Source: Nitrosopumilus sp. LS_AOA
Lineage (GTDB): Archaea; Thermoproteota; Nitrososphaeria; Nitrososphaerales; Nitrosopumilaceae
DNA: 40,798 nucleotides
Assembly (NCBI GenBank): GCA_001543015.1
Contig: LFLC01000043.1
Location: forward strand, 1 to 40,798
Direction of reading: 5' to 3'
The position numbers and the translations under genes are program-made. The number at the start of each line of letters is the position of its first letter. The first letter of the stretch is position 1. Below, in pieces: positions 11,509-13,393 of the stretch. Below the pieces are notes generated by a model. That model was not told the DNA's origin and did no database searches. It worked only from the letters and a program-made list of their open reading frames with translations.

Positions 11509-12033
11509 ATGTGTGATAGTATGTCCACACAACCTGACCCTGTAAAACAAAATATTGTAGATTGGTGTCAAGAAGATGATATACCCTGTGTAATTGCACC
11601 TGATGTACCTAATTTTGCATGGGTATTACAACTAGGTAGAGTAGGACACACCATAACCATTTACAAAACAACACAACATGATGATAGAATTTACATTCAA
11701 TCACAAATTTCATTTGGTGCAACTCATAGAACATTGGTTAATCAAACATGGAATGCACAACAAAGAAACAACATGACATTCAACATTAGAAAATTAGCAG
11801 TTCAGTATGATTGTAATTTGAATTTTCAATTAAATGGTGATGAAGTAATAGGAATCAACACATTCAAAATACATTTTCATGCCACAATATCAAAATCAGA
11901 GTTATTAGAAAAACACGTTAGAATGGAATCAATACACCTTATCCTTTTGAATCAATTAAATATTGAATTAGGTATTGCACTTCAAAATGATAGAACAAAT
12001 CAAAATCAAGATAATACCAATACGGGTAGATAG
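11509..12033 (+). CDS. Probable DUF2299-family protein
   Basis: A 174-residue cytoplasmic alpha/beta protein starting MCDSMSTQPDPVKQNIVDWC. A hydrophilic N-terminal helix is followed by strands (FAWVLQLGRVGHTITIYKTT; RIYIQSQISFG), a helix, strands (NTFKIHFHATI) and a final helix that ends in a Gln/Asn-rich tail. It resembles the archaeal DUF2299 family, whose fold is like that of secretion chaperones, but this is from memory of the pattern. An in-frame ATG at 11521 is an alternative start: a TTTTATAG box at 11483-11490 would place transcription start just before it. Function unknown. Confidence 0.65.
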   Translation: MCDSMSTQPDPVKQNIVDWCQEDDIPCVIAPDVPNFAWVLQLGRVGHTITIYKTTQHDDRIYIQSQISFGATHRTLVNQTWNAQQRNNMTFNIRKLAVQYDCNLNFQLNGDEVIGINTFKIHFHATISKSELLEKHVRMESIHLILLNQLNIELGIALQNDRTNQNQDNTNTGR

Positions 12034-12215: not shown

Positions 12216-12505
12216 ATCTTTTTTGTGATAATCCTAAGTTTTGTACTGTATTGTTAAGTATCTAGTACTTTTCATTTCGCTACAAATCTTGATAATTAAA
12301 GTGTGGAATTAGTGAAACAATACGTTACGGATTGTTTGAAAATTACTTCTCATTACTTGATGAATCATAATGTAATTAGATCAACTTGAAAAACATATTC
12401 TTACATGATGGGCTAAGAATTGATCCTATTACGATAACTACTAAAATTTTATGAAAAACCAATTCTTTAATGGAATACTTATGTTCATAGTTTTTAATAA
12501 AAATT

Positions 12506-13261
12506 ATGGGGTTATTCGATAAATTTAGTAAAACATTTGACAAATTTGGATATGATTTAGATGGGTATGATAAAGATGGGTATGATAAAAAAGGATACAA
12601 CAAAAATGGATTTGGTAAAGATGGGTACAACAGCAAGGGGTATGACAAAAAAGAATACAACAGAGATGGGTACAACAAAAAAGGATACAACAAAAATGGG
12701 TATGACAAAAAGGGATACAAAGATGGATACGACGAAGATGGATACAATTACAAGGGATACAACAGAGATGGGTACAACAAAAATGAGTATGACAACAAGG
12801 GATACAACAAAGACGGGTATGATAATCGTGGTTTTTCTCTTGATGGGATTCACATTGATACAAAAATAAATTTTGATAAAGACGGATACAACAAAAAAGG
12901 ATACAACAAAAATGGATACAACAAAGATGGTTACAACAAAAATGGATACAACAAAGATGGTTACAACAAAAATGGGTATGACAAAGACGGATATGGTATA
13001 GAGGGATACAACAAAGATGGGTATGGTGAAAATGGATACAACAAAGATGGGTATGATAAAAATGGATACAACAAAGATGGGTATGGTGAAAATAGTTACA
13101 ACAAATTTGGATATGATTTAGATGGGTATGATATCAATGGGCATAACAAAGATGGGTATGATAGACTTGGATATGATCACCTAGGTTACAACAAAGAGGG
13201 GTACAACAAAGATGGATACAACAAATTTAATCAAAATAAAATCGAAGTAAAAAATGATTAA
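12506..13261 (+). CDS. GY(N/D)xx pentapeptide-repeat protein, 251 aa
   Basis: After MGLFDKFSKTFDKF, an amphipathic N-terminal helix, the protein is about 44 nearly uninterrupted five-residue units with consensus G-Y-(N/D)-(K/x)-(D/N/K). One short break lies around residues 108-125 (FSLDGIHIDTKINFDKDG). There is no signal peptide or membrane helix, so the protein should stay in the cytosol. Many units read DxDGY or NKDGY, recalling the DxDG part of calcium-binding loops, but the full EF-hand spacing is absent. The reading frame is kept throughout apart from one four-residue unit (GYKD), which shows selection on the protein. I do not know a function. A structural or ion-binding repeat, or a surface for assembly, is inference. 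Confidence 0.8.
   Translation: MGLFDKFSKTFDKFGYDLDGYDKDGYDKKGYNKNGFGKDGYNSKGYDKKEYNRDGYNKKGYNKNGYDKKGYKDGYDEDGYNYKGYNRDGYNKNEYDNKGYNKDGYDNRGFSLDGIHIDTKINFDKDGYNKKGYNKNGYNKDGYNKNGYNKDGYNKNGYDKDGYGIEGYNKDGYGENGYNKDGYDKNGYNKDGYGENSYNKFGYDLDGYDINGHNKDGYDRLGYDHLGYNKEGYNKDGYNKFNQNKIEVKND
12911..12970 (+). repeat. Perfect 30-bp tandem duplication in the repeat gene
   Basis: Bases 12911-12940 and 12941-12970 are identical and each encode ten residues (NGYNKDGYNK). Further 30-bp units with two mismatches follow at 13021-13050 and 13051-13080. The identity shows recent copying, probably by slippage or unequal recombination. Confidence 0.85.
13101..13133 (+). repeat. 33-bp direct repeat with 12540-12572
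   Basis: Bases 13101-13133 repeat 12540-12572 exactly, 561 bp (187 codons) apart. Both encode the KFGYDLDGYD segment. The copy suggests that the C-terminal block of repeats was founded by a copy of the N-terminal block. Confidence 0.8.
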
Positions 13262-13393
13262 TCATAAAAATTGTGACCTAAAAAAAATACAAAGATAATA
13301 AAATGGATGAGATCAAAACCAATCAAATTGAAATATTATGAATAATAACTATGAATTGATTTAGTTTTTATTTGCAATAACTTTGTTACAATT

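Follow-up and report, generated by a model that had tools for sequence, protein, structure and literature searches.

Within the window, that is, the whole stretch of 40,798 nucleotides that was analysed, a pentad-repeat gene of the form GY(D/N)xx lies at 12506..13261 on the plus strand, identified by its open reading frame (ORF), its orthologues and its dN/dS. The ORF runs from an ATG at 12506 to a TAA at 13261 without internal stop and encodes 251 amino acids plus the stop; its neighbours are KARI (ketol-acid reductoisomerase), an EFTu-domain protein and a DUF2299-like gene. In the preliminary description, nearly the whole product was read as a GY(N/D)xx pentapeptide repeated about 44 times, and this is confirmed: the unit is G-(Y/F)-(D/N)-K-(N/D/K), and on a fixed grid 21 units are counted through the GIHID position and 23 beyond it (44 in all). 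According to Tandem Repeats Finder, 12540-13225 is covered by arrays that overlap one another, at periods of 15, 30, 45 and 60 nt. Across orthologues, position 1 of the unit is G and position 2 is Y (76%) or F (23%), followed by D (61%) or N (35%) at position 3, K (57%), E (13%) and others at position 4, and N (32%), D (26%), K (22%) or E (8%) at position 5. The pentad protein contains no Cys or Trp and no cluster of His, Cys or Met suited to copper or iron, and its net charge is near-neutral to acidic, spanning +9 to -23 among orthologues.

The pentads do not run on uniformly: their register is broken at conserved places. The N-terminal segment MGLFDKFSKTFDK (residues 1-13; 12506..12544, plus strand as for all features below) is conserved in the orthologue alignment as MG(L/F)(F/L)D(K/R)F(S/T)xTFD. 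It is amphipathic, as had been proposed, with a mean hydrophobic moment of 0.66 against 0.35 in shuffles, about 4% of which are equally high; residues 1-8 have low pLDDT in structure prediction. No signal peptide is evident in the sequence, in line with the earlier reading. An N-terminal arm of pentads covers residues 15-113 (12548..12844), and within it a conserved four-residue unit, GYKD (residues 70-73; 12713..12724), breaks the pentad register in the alignment. Next comes a 13-residue non-pentad element, GIHIDTKINFDKD (residues 114-126; 12845..12883; alignment consensus GIHIDTKIxFDKD), and then the C-terminal arm (residues 127-236; 12884..13213), the main site of recent exact duplications. 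A C-terminal cap, GYDHLGYNKEGYNKDGYNKF (residues 222-241; 13169..13228), is likewise conserved, the end of the orthologues in the alignment being GYDHLGYDKEGYNQEGYNKF.

Smaller paralogues of the same genus (L015, L018, L019, L020 and L053) carry a related motif, GIHKxTGTKFD, of which the 13-residue element seems to be a degenerate version. A second family of small Nitrosopumilus proteins was seen among these loci (L018:1483-2022, L019:1480-2247 on the minus strand, L020:1342-2034 and L053:5968-6735), in which GYD pentads are mixed with repeated GIHKxTGTKFD or TGTxFN motifs. One GIHKxTGTKFD paralogue has a C-terminal zinc ribbon, by a weak Pfam match.

The median dN/dS is 0.125 (57 usable of 91 orthologue pairs). 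Saturation is close for many of the dS values and repeat conversion is not taken into account by the method, so the figure is imprecise, but it shows the codons of the gene to be under purifying selection. The gene is indeed protein-coding and, as had been proposed, keeps its frame, the sole frame loss seen being an in-frame stop in the orthologue on a contig of the single cell AH-541-E13 (L050:6001-6276), which may be a pseudogene or a sequencing error.

Constant length and rewritten repeats

The copy number of a short tandem array is normally variable. Arm lengths of the pentad array were compared among 35 distinct complete orthologues. The Met-to-GIH distance of the N-terminal arm is 113 aa in 28 of the 35 and 114 aa in three more, and the GIH-to-GYNKF distance of the C-terminal arm is 123 aa in 28 of 35; the 28 orthologues with equal arm length share ancestry and so are not 28 independent observations. 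Total length is 246-252 aa in most orthologues, with exceptions of 109, 182, 212-241 and 286 aa.

The repeats themselves are rewritten from one orthologue to another. In the window gene, exact internal DNA copies reach 44 nt, at a 30-nt shift; the exact 30- and 33-bp copies reported before are of this kind. Shuffling synonymous codons of this gene gives a mean of 21 nt and a maximum of 27 nt; the 44-nt copy exceeds this maximum, and DNA-level duplication is therefore real. Nearly all orthologues have exact internal repeats of their own, 28-121 nt long (null means 18-30 nt under synonymous-codon shuffling), and these exceed the shuffle maximum in 26 of 27 orthologues. The duplication steps are 1, 2, 3, 4, 5 and 8 units, with differing periods and places. 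Since the orthologues carry their own duplications while arm lengths are nearly fixed, the repeats turn over while the length of the array is held. The exact copies had been taken as a sign of recent expansion, which does not fit these results: they substitute for units instead of adding to them, most orthologues stay at 246-252 aa, and the comparison of repeat number across orthologues gave turnover at fixed length.

Identity between orthologues is 0.69 in register versus about 0.50 when shifted in the N-terminal arm, and 0.64 versus about 0.55 in the C-terminal arm. Such values are as expected if the C-terminal arm turns over faster than the N-terminal arm. In-register gene conversion leaves length unchanged, and the constancy may thus be partly a product of the mutation process rather than of selection. 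An array that has been homogenised repeatedly and recently in each lineage and yet keeps the lengths of both arms offers a natural experiment on repeat turnover versus selection on length.

Genomic sites, flanks and descent

Only one locus (L038), from a close relative, shares the neighbourhood of the window gene, and its flanking genes are 98-99% identical. A functional link with the adjoining ketol-acid reductoisomerase was considered and rejected, because no other locus has the same neighbour. According to our reading of the clustered flanks, about 20 different sites are occupied among about 32 loci. As a background, 22 of 29 sister genomes retain the EFTu-domain gene upstream of KARI. Where the interval was inspected among them, the site is empty of the repeat gene and contains a small zinc-ribbon ORF followed by the KARI promoter; the L038 locus has the repeat gene between these two. 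The window also has a DUF2299-like gene (11509-12033; E 1.1e-4, just under the cut-off) after the EFTu-domain gene and before the repeat gene. L038, though otherwise almost identical here, lacks it, which points to a second recent insertion or loss at the site.

Similarity across sites ends about 40-90 nt upstream and 50-110 nt downstream of the ORF. The 3' flank of 76 nt (13262..13337) goes with the gene: L027 has it with about 95% identity, although its copy of the gene occupies another site. Upstream, the last 40 nt are conserved at about 82%, versus 42% further up. The alignment of these regions shows a CTTAT box 28 nt before the ATG (12478..12482 in the window), a candidate TATA element whose promoter role is inferred, and CTTATCTGAATTGAATTCATGAAATTCTGTT stands directly before the ATG in most orthologues; the window and L038 have a divergent version, offset by 3 nt. 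The conserved upstream box moves with the gene, and we infer that the CTTATCTGAATTGAATTCATGAAATTCTGTT region would be the core promoter of a leaderless transcript. No recombinase, integrase, transposase, terminal repeats or target-site duplication was seen around the examined loci, whose neighbours were annotated non-exhaustively, or in the empty-site comparison.

Intergenic copies of a dispersed repeat some 65 nt long, CCACGGGGATTCACCYACCAAATTGGGGATAAAATGGACGCAGATAGGC, were also observed in 21 of 40 Nitrosopumilus genomes, up to 8 in number (e.g. L028:5910, L032:5910, L043:5911, L049:5910 and L051:5557). In the genome from which the window comes (G000), copies lie outside the window, at C6:13003-13065 and on C35, C34, C22 and C7. 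Some copies start with GGGCCCACGGGGATT, resembling the 3' end of a tRNA gene close by, whose anticodon seems to be UAC, and in about 12 loci the repeat stands directly upstream of the pentad gene.

In the first genome set, orthologues occur in 13 other genomes of the same genus. The orthologue alignment matched 37 loci from named-species genomes; at 33 of them, all in Nitrosopumilus or the family to which it belongs, the match is this gene or a paralogue, which places the genome of the window with Nitrosopumilus. With weak and paralogous matches counted, 18 of 316 near-complete genomes match in the phylum sample and 26 of 119 in the family sample. Full-length forms occur in three genera of the family, as a rule in one copy per genome, and the gene is missing from about half or more of Nitrosopumilus genomes. 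Wholesale horizontal transfer, raised by the changing neighbourhoods, is weakened by the Mantel correlation of orthologue distances with those of KARI (r 0.67, p 0.005, over ten genomes; mean distance 0.256 vs 0.057). Because the distances of the pentad protein track this core gene, descent is mostly vertical, with loss of the gene and its relocation on its own.

Predicted structure and possible function

AlphaFold2 models of two orthologues (run with 27 and 20 orthologues, respectively) have mean pLDDT of 85 and 88, with peaks in the C-terminal arm, over most of which the value is above 90, and pTM of 0.38 and 0.43. Perfect repeats can inflate pLDDT, and AlphaFold may be overconfident on them. 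Both models contain almost no regular helix or strand; isolated beta bridges at residues 66-75 and 105-116 are common to both and coincide with the irregular elements. Foldseek found no fold match for either model in the PDB, and nothing useful came from BFVD (viral folds) or VIA-align. A solenoid with three pentads per turn, suggested by a 15-residue bridge spacing in the N-terminal arm of the first model, was rejected: the second model lacks the spacing, unit features have no lag-3 period or any other supra-period, and duplication steps are 1, 2, 3, 4, 5 and 8 units.

Scans of Pfam, NCBIfam and PHROG gave no family above cut-off, consistent with the earlier statement that no function is assigned. 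With E up to 1, Pfam returned only an irrelevant weak PMG match and no PF00805, RTX or EF-hand; the PDB sequence search returned only DotG (chain 7muc, E 0.08), the protein search of annotated phages no match, the plasmid search only weak Gordonia matches, and the literature search for motif strings no relevant paper among those covered. The DotG/IcmE repeat region of type IVB secretion (NF033900) matches weakly (E 0.00054, 18.1 bits), but the curated cut-off is 750 bits and the pentad gene has no other DotG parts or secretion genes with it. The MXKDX family (TIGR02953) likewise has a five-residue repeat rich in Lys and Asp, but it scores 12.5 bits against a cut-off of 41 and has Met where the pentad protein has Gly-Tyr. 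A short tandem-repeat protein is a known kind of protein; this variant is set apart by its fixed unit number and by having no relatives of assigned function.

Membership in the classical pentapeptide-repeat (Rfr) family, with its right-handed quadrilateral beta-helix, is scarcely credible. Rfr proteins (PF00805) have a tandem five-residue unit with a fixed aromatic or hydrophobic position and are often cytosolic, and the five-residue period with a regular aromatic recalls them. However, their consensus, A(D/N)LXX, calls for L/F at i and, two residues before it, for one that is small or uncharged (PMC7337050). The pentad protein has Y (76%) or F (23%) at i and Gly at i-1, and 87% of its units have N/D/K/E at i-2. 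The sequence thus departs from the consensus and PF00805 gives no profile match, so the assignment fails on sequence. As to the four-sided beta-helix of this family, with four pentads per coil, the two models are without strands and had no Foldseek hit in the PDB.

Of the functions that the preliminary description had offered, that of a structural array or of a scaffold for assembly is still the one we would guess first, while an array binding calcium or another ion is very improbable. The D/N-x-D/N-G spacing is superficially like that of EF-hand or RTX, but position 3 is Asn in 35% of units, position 4 is Lys in 57% and position 5 is Lys in 22%, net charge ranges from +9 to -23, and His, Cys or Met clusters for copper or iron are lacking. 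RTX repeats, moreover, are GGxGxDxUx nonapeptides, versus a period of 5 here, and neither RTX nor EF-hand was matched in Pfam.

We tentatively favour a conserved cytosolic spacer or scaffold, rod- or matrix-like, with an amphipathic N-terminal anchor, in Nitrosopumilus and near relatives. Because array length is constant, the array would act as a spacer, rod or matrix element of defined length. The Y or F at every fifth position would pack against neighbouring units or chains, and the N-terminal segment would be the point at which the array is attached to a partner or a membrane surface. Repeats would turn over by in-register gene conversion or by balanced duplication and deletion, and selection would remove most length changes. 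We count in favour of the spacer or scaffold the independently fixed arm lengths, the conserved irregular units and ends, the exact repeats particular to each orthologue, dN/dS, the upstream box that moves with the gene, the empty sister site, the tracking of KARI, pLDDT and the amphipathic N-terminus. Counted against it are the low pTM (0.38-0.43), the missing PDB fold match, the bridge spacing of the first model that was not reproduced, the lack of a supra-period, the length exceptions, the possibility of conversion without length change, and the patchy presence.

The main rival to the spacer or scaffold is a disordered polymer, in which spaced Y/F act as stickers and drive cytosolic condensation or gelation (a 'YG' phase), while the amphipathic N-terminus directs it to a surface. 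This is possible, though rather unlikely. The free exchange of Y and F at an aromatic position that recurs every fifth residue, spacers of G/D/N/K, the lack of Cys and Trp, the near-neutral to acidic charge and the absence of a matching solved or predicted fold would all suit it, and Y/G-rich domains of this general type in PEX13 are reported to form a pore-like phase (PMC9795577). PEX13 has repeated Tyr and Gly and a possible cohesive phase in common with the pentad protein, but it is a eukaryotic membrane protein, likened to it by composition. We know of no fixed pentad or fixed length in Y/G-rich meshwork domains such as that of PEX13. Disordered sticker arrays also seldom keep an exact unit count or fixed irregular units, and both models are confidently predicted, though pLDDT is a weak measure for repeats. 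It is quite unlikely that the gene is instead a roaming selfish or accessory unit, perhaps derived from a virus and made up of promoter, ORF and a 3' flank of about 50-110 nt, whose product would serve its own spread or a conflict with viruses and not cell structure. The approximately 20 different sites, with flanks common only to about -40/-90 and +50/+110, the patchy presence, the frequent position behind the 65-nt dispersed repeat and the pentad arrays in viral contigs speak for such a unit, but no integrase, transposase or target duplication was seen at the examined loci, divergence tracks KARI, and there is usually one full-length copy per genome. A more specific form of the spacer reading, an undescribed pentad-repeat fold serving ammonia-oxidising archaea as a fixed-length cytosolic ruler or rod, rewritten continually by recombination, with unit number selected in each arm and the promoter-plus-ORF unit roaming the chromosome, is doubtful as a whole.

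Similar pentads in other organisms

Similar pentads were found beyond the family. A Syntrophomonas protein of 1050 aa (L047) contains them together with zinc ribbons (Pfam) and hydrophobic, membrane-like segments, and short runs occur in proteins of Selenomonadaceae (L055), Clostridiales and Prochlorococcus (L056). The unnamed GYDxDG arrays of L047, L055, L056 and the viral contigs L072 and L115-L124 have the same pentad, and some adjoin an H-x-x-(T/N)-G-T-like motif; in contrast, they are either appended to or inserted in other domains or form small arrays whose length varies, and the N-terminus is not shared. GY(D/N)xx looks like a recurrent simple module of archaea, bacteria and viral contigs, not necessarily of common descent. 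The module has no entry in the family libraries searched, and it occurs in the marine ammonia-oxidising archaea, many of which carry the pentad protein and which are among the most abundant marine archaea.

One viral contig (L072:1812-8004) contains five tandem paralogues of about 320-440 aa, whose domain is related to ones on further large viral contigs; one is without a GYD array, and the other four carry a C-terminal one of differing length. Small ORFs of other viral contigs (L115-L124) carry similar pentads as well. For example, the viral contig IMGVR 3300027996_002390 (L115:192-3829) has at least six small ORFs rich in GYD, GFD or GFN pentads.
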